A stretch of DNA of 33,952 nucleotides from Patescibacteria group bacterium (GTDB taxonomy: Bacteria > Patescibacteriota > JACPGU01), in NCBI GenBank assembly GCA_028718745.1, contig JAQULF010000001.1, positions 175,078-209,029 of the forward strand, in the 5' to 3' direction. The notes under the pieces were generated by a model. It had not been told where the DNA came from. It did not search any database and saw only the letters and a list, made by a program, of their open reading frames with translations. The translations under genes and the position numbers were made by a program. Below, in pieces: positions 481 to 31,631 of this stretch. Numbering within the stretch: the first letter of the stretch is position 1; every line of letters begins with the position of its first letter.

Positions 481-3354
481 ATGTCTAAAAAGCAAAAATT
501 TTTGTTAATAGATTCTAACGCTCTCATCCACCGCTCCTTCCACGCTCTTCCTCCTCTTCGCATCAAAACAGGGGAATTTGTGGGAGCTGTTTATGGTTTC
601 ACCTCAACACTTTTAAAAGCGATCGAAGATATCAAGCCGGATTTCGTCGCGGCCGCTTTTGATTTGCCCGCGCCAACCTTTCGTCATGAAGAATATAAGG
701 AATATAAGGCCACTCGCACTAAAGCGCCCGACGAGCTTTATGAACAAATTCCGTACGCCAAAGAAGTTTTGACGGCTTTAAATATTCCGATCTACGCGCT
801 GGCCGGATTTGAAGCCGACGATCTGATTGGTACGCTTTGTAAGAGAATCGATGACAAGAAGCTGAATATCGACACCTATATTCTTACGGGCGATATGGAT
901 ACGCTTCAGTTGGTTGATGATAACACTCGTGTTTATACTTTGAAAAAAGGAATCAAAGATACGATTATTTATGATGAATCTTTGGTTGAACAAAAATACG
1001 GTTTTGGTCCGGATCGCGTTATCGATTACAAAGCTTTGCGAGGCGATCCATCGGATAATATCCCGGGAGTTAAAGGAATTGGAGAAAAAACCGCGACGGA
1101 TTTGATTAAAAAATATGGATCGCTGGATGGAATTTATAAAGCGATTAATGAGAATGCATTTGCCTTTTCCGCTTCGATAAAAGACAAGTTAATAAGCGAT
1201 AAAGAGAATGCTTATCTCTCAAAAAAATTAGCTACGATTCGACTGGATGTGCCGATTAAAATCGAAATTGAAGATTGCTGCACTTACGATTTTGACAAAG
1301 CCAAAGCGACGGCAGTTTTTCAAAAATTCGAGTTCCGATCTTTGATGGGAAGATTGTTAAAGTTGGTTGGTGATAAAAATAAGGTTGATGGCTCCGTAGG
1401 GGCGGGGTCTTCCCGCCCAGATTCGGGCGCGGTAACCGCGCCCCTACAAAATCCCAAATACATCCTTGTAAACACCCAAGAATCTTTTGATAAATTTTTT
1501 AATGAATTAAAAAAACAAAAAGAATTCGCAATCGATACCGAAACATCATTTCTTGGAGCTTTTGAGTCGGATTTAGTCGGCATCTCTTTTTCTTGGAAAG
1601 CGGGAATGGGATACTATATACCTGTAGGCCACACTGTAGGGAACAGCCATGGCTGTTCCGAACCAGATAGGGACAGGCATGCCTGTCCTCTGCAATTGGA
1701 CAAAAAATTCGTTTTAGAAAAACTCAAGCCAATTTTAGAGAATGAAAAGGTTAAAAAAATTGGCCAAAATATAAAATATGATCTTTTGGTTTTGAAAAAA
1801 GTTGGTATAAATATTAATGGTGTCTATTTCGACACTATGATCGCCTCTTACCTTATGAATCCAACCGGAAGAGGAAATTCTTTGGATGTTTTGGCTTTCT
1901 CCGAGTTTGGTCATGAAAATATGAAAATAACCGAATTGATTGGTACAGGAGCAAAACAAAAATCATTTGCCGAAGTTTCGGTTGAAGATGCCTGCGATTA
2001 TTCCGGAGAAGATAGTGATATTACTTGGCGACTTTACGAAGTATTCAAGGAAAGATTACAGGGCGAATCCCGACATCGGATGTCGGGGAATTCCCCGACA
2101 TCCGATGTCGGGACCGTAGAAAATATTTTTTATAACATTGAAATGCCTCTCGTTAAAATTTTGACCGATATGGAATTTTGGGGGGTGAAAATTGATGACA
2201 AATTTTTAGGAAAATTAAGCGCCAAAGTTGGCGAGAAGATTGCCGAGTTAGAAAAGAAAATTATCAAGATGGCGGGAGTTGATTTCAATATCAATTCGAC
2301 TCAACAGCTTTCGGAAGTTCTCTACAAAAAATTAGGCATCTGGAGCGAGAGCGCTAAGAAAACCAAAACCGGTATTTCAACCGGCATTGAATCATTGGAA
2401 AAATTAAAAGACGATCATCCGATTATTAAATTGATTTTGGAATATCGAGGATTGGCGAAATTGCAAAGCACATATCTCGAAGCTTTGCCAAAATTAATTA
2501 GCGAAATTGATGGTCGAGTGCATACTTCATATAACCAGACAATTGCTTCTACCGGCAGATTATCTTCGTCAGATCCAAATCTGCAGAATATTCCCATTCG
2601 CACCGATTTAGGGGCGGAAATTCGCAAAGCATTTATAGCCGAAAAAGGAAAGAAACTTTTGATTTGCGATTATTCGCAAGTGGAACTTCGGGTGGCCGCT
2701 TCCATCGCTAATGATAAAAAAATGCTAGAAGCGTTTAATTCCGGCCGCGATATTCACACGGAAACCGCAGAAGCGATTTTTGACATTCCGAGTAGGGGCA
2801 CGGCGCGCCGTGCCCCTACAAAAGATGAAAGGCGAGTTGCCAAGGTGGTTAATTTTGGAATTATTTACGGCATCTCGCCTTACGGTTTGGCGCAAGCAAC
2901 CGAGAAAACTCCGCAAGAAGCTGGGAAATTTATGGAGGAGTATTTTAAGGAATATCCATCGATCAAAAAATATATGGATAGCACAATTGTTGGTGTGCAG
3001 GAAAAAGGTTATGTTGAAACTTTGCTTGGTCGTCGCCGTTATATTCCCGATATTAATTCGGGTGTTATTCAAATCAAAAAAGCGGCCGAGCGCATGGCGA
3101 TAAATATGCCGATTCAAGGTACCGCGGCGGATATTATGAAACTCGCGATGCTCAAAATCGATGAAGAGATTTTACAAAAAGATAAAGAAGTTAAAATGAT
3201 CCTGCAAGTACACGATGAACTTGTCTTTGAAATCGATGAATCAAGAATTAAGAATTATGAATCAAGAATCAAGGAAATTATGGAATCAGTTTTCAAACTG
3301 AAATGCCCATTGATTGTGGAGACGAGTGTTGGGGAGAATTGGGGAGAGAAATAA
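481..3354 (+). CDS. polA: DNA polymerase I (5' nuclease, 3'-5' exonuclease and polymerase domains) carrying several in-frame palindromic insertions
   Basis: 957 aa; motifs DYSQVELRVAA, RRVAKVVNFGIIYG, LQVHDELVFE, and exo FAIDTET. Confidence 0.97.
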   Translation: MSKKQKFLLIDSNALIHRSFHALPPLRIKTGEFVGAVYGFTSTLLKAIEDIKPDFVAAAFDLPAPTFRHEEYKEYKATRTKAPDELYEQIPYAKEVLTALNIPIYALAGFEADDLIGTLCKRIDDKKLNIDTYILTGDMDTLQLVDDNTRVYTLKKGIKDTIIYDESLVEQKYGFGPDRVIDYKALRGDPSDNIPGVKGIGEKTATDLIKKYGSLDGIYKAINENAFAFSASIKDKLISDKENAYLSKKLATIRLDVPIKIEIEDCCTYDFDKAKATAVFQKFEFRSLMGRLLKLVGDKNKVDGSVGAGSSRPDSGAVTAPLQNPKYILVNTQESFDKFFNELKKQKEFAIDTETSFLGAFESDLVGISFSWKAGMGYYIPVGHTVGNSHGCSEPDRDRHACPLQLDKKFVLEKLKPILENEKVKKIGQNIKYDLLVLKKVGININGVYFDTMIASYLMNPTGRGNSLDVLAFSEFGHENMKITELIGTGAKQKSFAEVSVEDACDYSGEDSDITWRLYEVFKERLQGESRHRMSGNSPTSDVGTVENIFYNIEMPLVKILTDMEFWGVKIDDKFLGKLSAKVGEKIAELEKKIIKMAGVDFNINSTQQLSEVLYKKLGIWSESAKKTKTGISTGIESLEKLKDDHPIIKLILEYRGLAKLQSTYLEALPKLISEIDGRVHTSYNQTIASTGRLSSSDPNLQNIPIRTDLGAEIRKAFIAEKGKKLLICDYSQVELRVAASIANDKKMLEAFNSGRDIHTETAEAIFDIPSRGTARRAPTKDERRVAKVVNFGIIYGISPYGLAQATEKTPQEAGKFMEEYFKEYPSIKKYMDSTIVGVQEKGYVETLLGRRRYIPDINSGVIQIKKAAERMAINMPIQGTAADIMKLAMLKIDEEILQKDKEVKMILQVHDELVFEIDESRIKNYESRIKEIMESVFKLKCPLIVETSVGENWGEK
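1396..1447. repeat. Paired-hairpin palindromic element in polA (GTAGGGGCG...CGCCCCTAC)
   Basis: GTAGGGGCGGGGTCTTCCCGCCCAGATTCGGGCGCGGTAACCGCGCCCCTAC; read as VGAGSSRPDSGAVTAPLQ. Confidence 0.9.
1636..1693. repeat. Paired palindromes in polA exonuclease domain (GGAACAGCCATGGCTGTTCC and GGACAGGCATGCCTGTCC)
   Basis: Perfect palindromes at 1640-1659 and 1671-1688; read as VGNSHGCSEPDRDRHACPLQ. Confidence 0.9.
2068..2113. repeat. 46-nt perfect palindrome in polA
   Basis: TCCCGACATCGGATGTCGGGGAATTCCCCGACATCCGATGTCGGGA equals its own reverse complement. Confidence 0.95.
2792..2819. repeat. 28-nt perfect palindrome in the polA polymerase domain
   Basis: GTAGGGGCACGGCGCGCCGTGCCCCTAC; read as SRGTARRAPT just before the O-helix motif. 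Confidence 0.95.
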
Positions 3355-3400: not shown

Positions 3401-3470
3401 GTAGAGGTTTGATTTATCAAACCTTGAAATTGAGTGCGAAATAATGGCCATTGATGAATCAAACCCCTAC
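3401..3470. repeat. Intergenic paired-hairpin element with GTAG...CTAC ends
   Basis: GTAGAGGTTTGATTTATCAAACC...ATTGATGAATCAAACCCCTAC. Confidence 0.75.
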
Positions 3471-4016: not shown

Positions 4017-4040
4017 GGTTCCACGCAGGAGCATGGAACC
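4017..4040. repeat. GGTTCCACGC-AGGA-GCATGGAACC hairpin; half copy of the element at 31535-31631
   Basis: Near-identical to GGTTCCAAGCAGGAGCTTGGAACC at 31605-31628. Confidence 0.7.
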
Positions 4041-4067
4041 AACATACGGGGTATATCAAGCCATTTT

Positions 4068-4471: not shown

Positions 4472-4673
4472 GAAAAACGCTCTAAAATTAGGCAAGATTC
4501 TTGAAGACATTCGCGCTCTCAATATAGATGGTTATGATCTGACAAAAATGGAACCCCAAAATACACTATATCGGATCCGTTCCGGAAAAATAAGAGTGGT
4601 TTTTCGAAAAGAGAATGGGATTGGGGTACCGATTTATATAGAGTTTCGAGGGCGGGTCTATAAAAAGTTCTAA
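4434..4673 (+). CDS. RelE/ParE-family toxin-like protein
   Basis: 79 aa; LYRIRSGKIRVVFRKENGIGVPIYIEFRGRVYKKF is RelE-like; overlaps the antitoxin gene. Confidence 0.8.
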   Translation: MDRIEKFLRKIDKKNALKLGKILEDIRALNIDGYDLTKMEPQNTLYRIRSGKIRVVFRKENGIGVPIYIEFRGRVYKKF

Positions 4674-5638
4674 GAACAAATTTTTACCACTAACAAATCC
4701 AACGCCAGTCCCGGGTCTTTTTCGCCGGTTTTGATAGCGAGGTCGGTTTCAAAGATTAAGTGGTAAATTTCTTTGAGTTTTTCGAGAGTGAAATTTTTGG
4801 TTTGCAGTAAAGTTTTTTTGTGGACATACGGATTCATCCGGGTTTCGGTCAGAAATACTTGAAGCGGGATTTTTTCTTTTTCTGCTAATTTAATTAAAAT
4901 TAAATTGCGAAATTGGAAAGCGATCATAGATAAAACCCCATAAATTTCCTCTCCAGAATCAGTGATATTTTTTAAGATATTTTGAGCGGTTTTAATATCT
5001 TTTTTCGCAAGAGCATCAGTTAAACTAAAAATGTTGGTATCTACATTGGCTTTAACTAATTTCAAAACATCATCGGAATTGATGTTTTTTTCTTTATATT
5101 TATAGGCAGTTAACTTTTTGATTTCATTATCAATCTGGCGAGTGTCATAACCCACCAACGCCACCAATCCATTAATGGCTTTTGGTTCGATAGAAAAGCC
5201 CTTCGCTTTCAGCTTATCGCCAATCCAGCGGTTCAATCGTGCCACATCCATATTTTGGAAATGAAAAACATTTTTGGGATCTAGTTTACCGATAAAATTT
5301 TCAATTTCCTTAACGCGATCTTTGGCTTTATAAGGCAGGAGATCCTTATTTTCAAAAAAGATTATAACTGTAGAATCCGGCGATGAGACCGCGCCCTCAA
5401 TGATTTTTTTACGATCATCTTTTTTGGTGCTGCTCAAAATATTTTCCAAAATTACCACTCTTTTTTCTCCGAGAAAGGGAAGCGAATTTATTTCATTTAA
5501 AATTTTATTAATGTCCAGATTTTCCTCGCTAAATCCGCTCACATTAAAATCCCCATATTTTTTTATGGAGCCAGATTTGAAAAAAATAAGTTTTTCGCTA
5601 GCGAGAAAATCGTCCTCGCCATGGATTAGATAGACCAT
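4670..5638 (-). CDS. holA: DNA polymerase III delta subunit
   Basis: MVYLIHGEDDFLASEK..., HolA-type N-terminus; the ORF-track start (5674) lies in repeat DNA. Confidence 0.85.
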   Translation of the reverse strand: MVYLIHGEDDFLASEKLIFFKSGSIKKYGDFNVSGFSEENLDINKILNEINSLPFLGEKRVVILENILSSTKKDDRKKIIEGAVSSPDSTVIIFFENKDLLPYKAKDRVKEIENFIGKLDPKNVFHFQNMDVARLNRWIGDKLKAKGFSIEPKAINGLVALVGYDTRQIDNEIKKLTAYKYKEKNINSDDVLKLVKANVDTNIFSLTDALAKKDIKTAQNILKNITDSGEEIYGVLSMIAFQFRNLILIKLAEKEKIPLQVFLTETRMNPYVHKKTLLQTKNFTLEKLKEIYHLIFETDLAIKTGEKDPGLALDLLVVKICS

Positions 5639-5643
5639 TAGAG

Positions 5644-5715
5644 TAGTAAGTAGTAAGTAGTAAGTAGTAAGCAAAAATCCATACTACCTACTACATAATA
5701 CCTACTACCTACTAC
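5644..5715. repeat. GTAGTAAGTAGTAAG.../...CTACCTACTAC inverted repeat unit with no gene inside
   Basis: gtagtaagtagtaagtagtaag ... ctacctactacataatacctactacctactac. Confidence 0.7.
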
Positions 5716-7176: not shown

Positions 7177-8406
7177 ATGAAGATTATAGCTATTGAAACA
7201 TCCTGTGACTAAACTTCTGCGGCAGTTTATGATTCGAAACGCGGTTTGCTATCCAATGTTGTAGCAAGCCAGATTGATATTCATAAAAAAACCGGCGGAG
7301 TGGTACCGGAAGTGGCATCTCGTGCCCATGTGGAGCAGATTTTACCGGTTATTGAAGAAGCTCTGAAAAAAGCCAATGTTAGTTTGGGGAAAATTGATTA
7401 TATTGCCGTTACGCATGCGCCGGGCTTGATTGGATCGCTTTTAGTCGGGGTTAATACGGCGAAAACTTTGTCGGCAGTATTGGATAAACCGCTTTTACCG
7501 ATAAACCATTTGGAGGGGCATATATACGCAAACTTCATAAATCAGAACCAAGATTTAGCAGGATTACAAAGGATTAAACCGGATTCTAATCCTGAAAATC
7601 CAAATAAAATCCTGATTAATCATGGTTCAGAATTTAAATTTCCTGCAATTGTATTATTGGTATCCGGTGGACATACTTCCTTAATTCTTATGCGAGATCA
7701 TGGTAAATACAAAACTCTAGGTGAAACATTAGATGACGCGGCAGGAGAGGCGTTTGATAAAGTAGCTAGGGTGCTGGAACTGCCATATCCAGGAGGACCT
7801 AATATTTCACGCATGGCCGAAGAGTATCGCAGAAAATTTCCAATTTCCAATTTCCAATTTCCAATAAAATCCCAAATTCAAAATCCCAAAATGGGGGATG
7901 GAAATTTTTTTCCGAGATCTATGTTAGATAGTGGTAATTTTAATTTCTCTTTTTCCGGATTAAAAACTGCAGTTTTGTACAAATGGCAGGAGGAGACCGT
8001 AGGGGCGACCCTGCGTGGTCGCCCGCATTCGGGAGGCCACATAGGGCCTCCCCTACAATCCGGTCAAAATAATAATCTTAGAGAAATGTTTTGCTACGAA
8101 TTTGAAGAAGCCGTTGTTGATATTCTGGCGACAAAAACACTTTCCGCTGCAAAAAGATATAGAGCAAAAACGGTCTCCATTTGCGGAGGAGTGGCGGCAA
8201 ATAAACGACTCAGAGAAGAAATTAGCTTGCGAATACAAAAAGAACTGCCTAATACTTTATACTTAATACCTAATACTAAATTCTGTGGAGATAATGCGGC
8301 AATGGTCGCGACATGCGCAAGTTATCAAGTAAACAAGAAAACAAAAAAGCAAAAAAACAAGAAATCAAATTTGGATTTTGAGGTAATGTCAAATAAAGAG
8401 CTGTAA
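7177..8406 (+). CDS. tsaD: tRNA N6-adenosine threonylcarbamoyltransferase TsaD, interrupted by an in-frame TAA at 7210-7212
   Basis: MKIIAIETSCD*TSAAVYDSKRG...; downstream motifs HLEGH, VSGGHTSL, FSFSGLKTAV, CGGVAANKRLR, FCGDNAAM all intact. Confidence 0.93.
7545..7628. repeat. Inverted-repeat element inside tsaD (GAACCAAGATTTAGCAGGATT ... AATCCTGATTAATCATGGTTC)
   Basis: 21-nt arms matching at 18 of 21 positions; extra peptide between HLEGHIYANF and EFKFPAIVLLVSGGH. Confidence 0.8.
7999..8056. repeat. Paired-hairpin GTAG...CTAC element inside tsaD
   Basis: GTAGGGGCGACCCTGCGTGGTCGCCCGCATTCGGGAGGCCACATAGGGCCTCCCCTAC; read as VGATLRGRPHSGGHIGPPLQ. Confidence 0.9.
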
Positions 8407-31534: not shown

Positions 31535-31631
31535 GTTGGTTCAATGCTCCTGCATTGAATCATGAATGTACAATAAGAATTTAAAACTTCAAGATGTACA
31601 CATAGGTTCCAAGCAGGAGCTTGGAACCAAC
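31535..31631. repeat. Paired-hairpin element with GTTGG...CCAAC ends
   Basis: GTTGGTTCAATGCTCCTGCATTGAATC ... GGTTCCAAGCAGGAGCTTGGAACCAAC; half copy at 4017. Confidence 0.75.

Follow-up and report, generated by a model that had tools for sequence, protein, structure and literature searches.

Palindromes inside a Patescibacteria polA gene as probable GTAG REPs and REPINs with resident RAYT transposases

Repetitive extragenic palindromic elements (REPs) carrying a GTAG tag have been described within genes, DNA polymerase I included (Di Nocera et al. 2013, PMC3733652). Double-foot REPs, and REPs in frame inside tnpAREP genes between HuH and Y, are marks of TnpAREP subclass 2.4 (PMC6006769). Given that both intragenic GTAG REPs and REPs inside tnpAREP are published, the REP/RAYT system analyzed here is already known in kind, although it is apparently unreported in Patescibacteria and is unusually gene-dwelling here. 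RAYT-embedded REPs were likewise dropped as a novelty, being already in PMC6006769. An earlier note on this DNA knew of no described equivalent in the lineage; precedents are published elsewhere, and for Patescibacteria the statement holds within a limited literature search, which found no report combining Patescibacteria or the candidate phyla radiation with repetitive extragenic palindromic elements and is a weak negative.

The window, meaning the whole 33,952-nucleotide stretch analyzed, spans G000:C1:175078-209029, where G000 is the draft genome studied (888 kb, 28 contigs, 97% complete). Its polA gene (481..3354, + strand; Pfam DNA_pol_A at 504 bits, 5_3_exonuc_N, DNA_pol_A_exo1) encodes all three Pol I domains: 5' nuclease, 3'-5' exonuclease, and polymerase. 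The nearest named PolA record comes from Patescibacteria RA.bin104 (75% over the best segment), followed by Kerfeldbacteria and Falkowbacteria at 47-49%; judged by PolA similarity, the source genome belongs in Patescibacteria. All four palindromic elements that the earlier note placed in polA are real, and, as it had claimed, they leave the frame open; it runs to 957 aa. Overlapping perfect stems of 9 bp or more number 15 in the gene; 200 synonymous-codon shuffles averaged 0.285, with at most 3 stems and a longest stem of 11.

Element 1 (1396..1447), in the linker that joins the 5' nuclease domain to the 3'-5' exonuclease domain, is a head-to-head GTAG REP dimer (REPIN) with two hairpins, laid out as GTAG plus GGGCGGGGTCTTCCCGCCC, a 6-nt spacer, and GGGCGCGGTAACCGCGCCC plus CTAC. 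Its left half has a GGGCGGGG core, like the REPIN cores inside a RAYT gene at G000:C5:37383. Element 2 (1636..1693) is a REP dimer in an exonuclease-domain loop after YYIPVGH, consisting of GTAG plus GGAACAGCCATGGCTGTTCC, a spacer, and GGACAGGCATGCCTGTCC, with hairpins at 1640-1659 and 1671-1688; its first core is identical to one inside the RAYT gene at G000:C6:21635, and that RAYT copy carries GGAACAGGCATGCCTGTTCC together with GGAACAGCCATGGCTGTTCC, the pair of core types found in element 2. Element 4 (2792..2819), in the loop before the O-helix, is a double-foot REP, GTAGGGGCACGGCGCGCCGTGCCCCTAC, with 14-bp perfect arms. Three sites in the genome hold exact 28-nt copies of it, as do two other families of Patescibacteria. 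None of the five resident RAYTs described below offers a partner for the core of element 4, and the closest among the RAYT cores compared, GGGCACGGCATGCCGTGCCC, lies in another genome (L186).

Element 3 (2068..2113) is a 46-nt perfect palindrome with 23-bp perfect arms, formed by two CCCGACATC(C/G)GATGTCGGG hairpins. The GTAG palindrome tag proposed earlier is present in elements 1, 2, and 4 (degenerate, CTGC, at the end of element 2) and absent from element 3, which is therefore not filed in the GTAG REP superfamily. Related palindromes of GATGTC/GACATC type occur both within the L005 RAYT gene and on its flanks, and others are found inside radical-SAM (L103:3642) and mfd (L117:9456) ORFs; given these occurrences, a second RAYT-linked, REP-like family of the L005 type probably supplied element 3, a reading of lower confidence.

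The two other genomes of the same family, G001 and G002, encode PolA proteins of which one is 78% and the other 63% identical to that of G000. In codon alignments the element peptides are absent from both, as the earlier note expected, with the exception of the element 2 position in G002, which holds a degenerate REP (GTAGGGACAGAAAATATTCTGCCCGTAC); they are also missing from 21 further PolA relatives by protein alignment. The wording of the earlier note, which called the elements insertions, stands only in part: elements 1 and 4 partly replace host codons, because their net gain over G002 (27 of 52 nt and 15 of 28 nt) is less than element length, and for element 4 the codon alignment likewise gives a net +15 nt against relatives. 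The suggested surface-loop placement agrees with an AlphaFold model of PolA (mean pLDDT 86.5), in which the three segments with pLDDT <50 (aa 299-323, 388-400, and 537-541) are elements 1-3, and element 4 is predicted to form a loop before helix 781-795. Separately, a Falkowbacteria PolA (L025) carries an independent in-frame REP (VETHNHASLR) elsewhere, within its 5' nuclease domain.

Beyond polA, we surveyed stretches totaling 420 kb, or 47% of the genome. With no tag assumed, we asked which 4-mers lie directly 5' of hairpins: GTAG did so 71 times against 3.6 expected from tag frequency, a roughly 20-fold excess and the highest ratio among 4-mers, and the Markov control of this test gave 0 GTAG-plus-hairpin sites. 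The tagged hairpins are nearly all 19-21 nt, and their stem sequences are many and unrelated with pairing kept (GGGCGCGG.., GGGCACGG.., GGAACAGCC.., AGACGAACGG.., GGGCGCAA.., and more). Paired tags are arranged head-to-head in 19 cases versus tail-to-tail in 1, and the sample holds 79 REP units in 54 elements. A match inside pnp (window 16267) aligns to G002 without gaps and is probably due to chance.

These features place elements 1, 2, and 4 with the GTAG REP superfamily, since in each an unpaired GTAG immediately precedes a short hairpin of 19-20 nt, and the genome has many copies and common head-to-head dimers. The mostly extragenic location that is usual for the superfamily, though not defining, is not seen; genic location does not exclude membership because intragenic members have been described (PMC3733652). 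REPIN organization, in which a pair of inverted REPs and the spacer between them disperse together, is also found. The tsaD gene (7246..8406, + strand; Pfam TsaD, 300 bits) hosts a REPIN in frame (7999..8056; peptide VGATLRGRPHSGGHIGPPLQ) that is identical at 57/58 nt to one elsewhere in the genome (L099:7861-7918), and core pairs similar to it occur in polA and at L102, L103, and L113. Just 3' of polA, an intergenic AT-rich GTAG..CTAC dimer lies at 3401..3470 (AGGTTTGATTTATCAAACCT; TTGATGAATCAAACCCCTAC). At window positions 5643-5708, close to the beginning of a minus-strand ORF (4670-5674), short GTAGTAA tandem repeats give way to CTAC-rich sequence; these do not form a REP hairpin.

The earlier proposal of a dispersed palindrome family colonizing coding genes in frame was borne out, as elements are spread across many other genes. 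In the 420 kb, 44/54 elements fall inside called ORFs against an ORF cover of 83%, a figure that is approximate because the ORFs are simple longest-ORF calls and that takes in three RAYT genes and the probable chance hairpin in pnp. Genes are thus not avoided in G000: the genic share is about what ORF cover predicts. Pfam families were matched by 27 of 30 interrupted ORFs scanned, including TsaD, TsaE, PrmC, Dus, GatB, QueA, TGT, ArgRS, NusA, S6, S1, an Mfd-like protein, and two pseudouridine synthases; a methylpurine-DNA glycosylase gene also carries a REP. Seven ORFs have at least two elements versus a simulated mean of 2.9, so clustering is somewhat above random. The earlier note found four elements in one polymerase striking; the number is unusual without being unique, and polA was rejected as a special target. 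Four in polA is the extreme of a general pattern, because three elements occur in each of prmC and dus, and mfd combines two GTAG elements with a palindrome that lacks the tag.

Eight Y1_Tnp genes were first found in the genome, four of them with GTTG-class hairpins at their ends. The PF01797 matches at L001-L004 were rejected as partners of the polA elements, their hairpins being GTTG-tagged and without a match to those elements. This second hairpin class (GTTCNNNGCTCCTGC...) occurs in the window at 4019-4043 and 31596-31631, flanks the L001-L004 RAYTs, and is dispersed elsewhere too. The partner clade was recognized because three REP-interrupted ORFs were themselves transposases. It has five members in G000 (C9:1616, C12:23302, C6:21635, C12:11401, and C5:37383), each with a REP or REPIN in its own reading frame shortly after the HUH motif, and their internal cores match dispersed REPs, including polA elements 1 and 2. 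Among 43 homologous Patescibacteria RAYT ORFs, 41 contain a GTAG hairpin within the CDS, and in 40 of the 43, all five of G000 included, it lies between HUH and WQ, where synonymous shuffles predict 0.85. At a given locus the internal and flanking RAYT cores differ at a median of 1 position, compared with 13 between loci.

Of the 71 dispersed REP units compared, 26 lie within 2 mismatches of a core from the five resident RAYTs, whereas sets of five foreign RAYTs drawn at random gave 3.3 on average (p 0.0005; one of three thresholds tried); exact matching gave 9 versus 2.3 and was not significant (p 0.16). The putative link between RAYTs and REPs is based on sequence matching. In a RAYT structure model, the REP-coded residues are predicted to form a disordered loop that follows the HUH strand and precedes the next helix.

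Alignment of these RAYTs shows MPNH[ILVF]H, WQ in most, and YI..NP, corresponding to the subclass 2.4 motifs NH[IFV]H, WQ, and YIxNNP, with YI.SNP in G000 as a variant of the last; REPs also sit in frame within tnpA, in the stretch from HuH to Y. The best NCBIfam, NF047646, scores 52-54 bits, under its cut-off of 80. From the motifs and the internal REPs described for the subclass, the RAYTs are probably of the subclass 2.4 type. A sample of 313 Patescibacteria genera gave profile matches in 50, some of which may lie outside subclass 2.4. The RAYT genes at L004, L005, L006, and L008 contain in-frame palindromes of other types, such as AGGGAAGATCCAATCTCCCCCAAGGAGGGGGAGATTGGATCTTCCCT in L006. 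Outside Patescibacteria, the Leptolinea and Spirosoma plasmid RAYTs have only nearby REPs, and a Monoglobus plasmid RAYT has an internal REP plus REPs on both flanks. The latter is a Bacillota RAYT, WP_331681923.1 (L224; Monoglobus pectinilyticus plasmid NZ_OY725736.1, 2040-2405), with one REP core upstream, inside, and downstream; it sits between two site-specific DNA methyltransferase genes.

Taken together, the anatomy of tag and hairpin, the dispersal in many copies, the lack of the elements in the genes of relatives, the in-frame placement in loops, and the RAYT core matches make it very probable that polA elements 1, 2, and 4 are GTAG REPs/REPINs, non-autonomous hairpins spread as single-stranded DNA by resident HUH/tyrosine TnpAREP (RAYT) transposases of the subclass 2.4 type. 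By analogy with TnpAREP biochemistry (PMC8266576), a RAYT would bind the single-stranded GTAG hairpin and cut beside it. Cutting and transfer would most likely use the template of the lagging strand, as in IS200/IS605, and the copies produced would join elsewhere. Any that landed out of frame or in structured regions would be lost, and those in frame in loops would be kept by selection and persist as extra peptide; VGNSHGCSEPDR is an example in PolA, predicted from REP codons. Element 3 probably followed the same process with another family, that of the L005-type RAYT, at lower confidence.

A net gain in genes that is usually less than element length argues against clean insertion, which would need later deletion. 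In gatB (L113:4242-4265), 15 of 24 nt are gained, and the second dus element (L113:6705-6728) gains a net 0 of 24 nt against two relatives, with 8 codons replaced. REPs therefore often appear, from such codon alignments, to replace host codons rather than simply add to them, through either deletions after insertion or a replacing process. By eye, no target-site duplications were evident in the codon alignments. G000 and G002 both carry a REP at the same codon in gatB, prmC, dus (third element), and polA (element 2). The gatB core is near-identical in the two, with base differences, and the site is empty in G001. At the other three the cores differ between the two genera (L113:11815 vs L226; L113:6789 vs L229; window 1636 vs L016): the G002 copies all have a AGAAAATTTTCT-type core (those of dus and polA being degenerate), and the G000 copies have three different cores. 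Coincidence within 10 nt at four of ~20 comparable sites would be expected ~0.01 times, an arithmetic estimate that sets roughly eight genic REP sites against 328 kb of coding sequence in G002. Chance is not expected to produce such coincidence, which calls for common ancestry or a common hot spot.

These sites support the most serious alternative, in which an ancestral REP is rewritten in place by template switching or REP-to-REP conversion, so that most sites are old, only their cores change, and new insertion is rare. The differing cores at shared codons, the gatB REP shared with G002 and missing from G001, and the length-neutral swap in dus all fit it; most G000 elements nevertheless have no recognizable REP opposite in G002, and near-identical REPINs in unrelated genes require copying between loci. 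We regard this alternative as improbable, though worth keeping in mind. A bolder generalization, which we offer as speculative and rather doubtful, is that REPs in this lineage overwrite coding DNA by being swapped in place, that an occupied site is rewritten repeatedly with the cores of resident RAYTs, and that genes, not intergenic DNA, are their main long-term home. The gene-dwelling pattern is not shown for the whole family, because only 8/15 elements of G002 lie inside ORFs.

The earlier note looked to Rickettsia palindromic elements (RPEs) for a precedent, and GTAG REPs/REPINs with RAYT transposases fit instead. An independent RPE-like system without a transposase would likewise leave palindromes in frame in numerous unrelated essential genes, here as there in a reduced genome. 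This reading was rejected and is very unlikely, since the GTAG tag, the modular 24/28-nt size, the head-to-head dimers, and the match to RAYT-embedded REPs point to REP/RAYT; RPE-4 and RPE-6 are listed as CGTC-tagged repeats (PMC3733652) and have no known dedicated transposase, whereas the tag in G000 is GTAG. Equally hard to credit is selection of the inserts in PolA for a function, as regulatory RNA hairpins or as modifiers of polymerase activity. PMC3733652 speculates on such functions for REPs in repair genes, and three GTAG elements plus a fourth palindrome in polA, with further REPs in mfd and the methylpurine-DNA glycosylase gene, would suit the idea, but the interrupted genes cover translation, tRNA modification, transcription, conjugation, and metabolism, relatives' PolA lacks the inserts, and these are predicted loops. 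We infer no benefit of the inserts to PolA. Although the genome is a draft of 28 contigs, assembly artefact or chance has next to no likelihood, as identical elements occur in independently assembled genomes, the gatB element is common to G002 with base differences, and the shuffles exclude chance.

The polA gene strikingly illustrates a known type of genome parasite, in this case within an ultra-small lineage of Patescibacteria. REP/RAYT elements are thereby established in Patescibacteria, in a reduced genome where REPs sit mostly inside essential genes and several RAYT-REP pairs coexist. Because sister genera carry different cores at orthologous sites, how REPs change sequence becomes testable, and REP-coded peptides explain odd protein inserts that might otherwise be taken for lineage-specific features.

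The closest described system is TnpAREP subclass 2.4/RAYT group 4 (Quentin et al. 2018, PMC6006769), with which this one shares GTAG..CTAC double-foot and long REPs, many with a G-C stem base; in-frame REPs in the tnpAREP gene between HuH and Y; flanking REPs of the same core; and the HUH/WQ/YI..NP motifs. The published members are mainly from Cyanobacteria, Bacteroidetes, and various phyla, whereas these are from Patescibacteria, with several RAYTs of differing cores per genome, AGAC-based stems besides GGGC, and heavy dispersal into host genes. As with the intragenic GTAG REPs of PMC3733652, the elements lie in frame in numerous genes, among them those for DNA polymerase I and repair, in single and dimer forms adding 20-30 extra residues; the published REPs are mostly intergenic, in contrast to the ORF share here, which approximates ORF cover (44/54 vs 83%). 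Like the REPINs of Bertels and Rainey (2011, PMC3116915), polA element 1 and the tsaD element comprise two inverted REPs and a spacer as a unit, but here the spacer is only ~6-30 nt, the location is often intragenic, and a single genome carries many cores.
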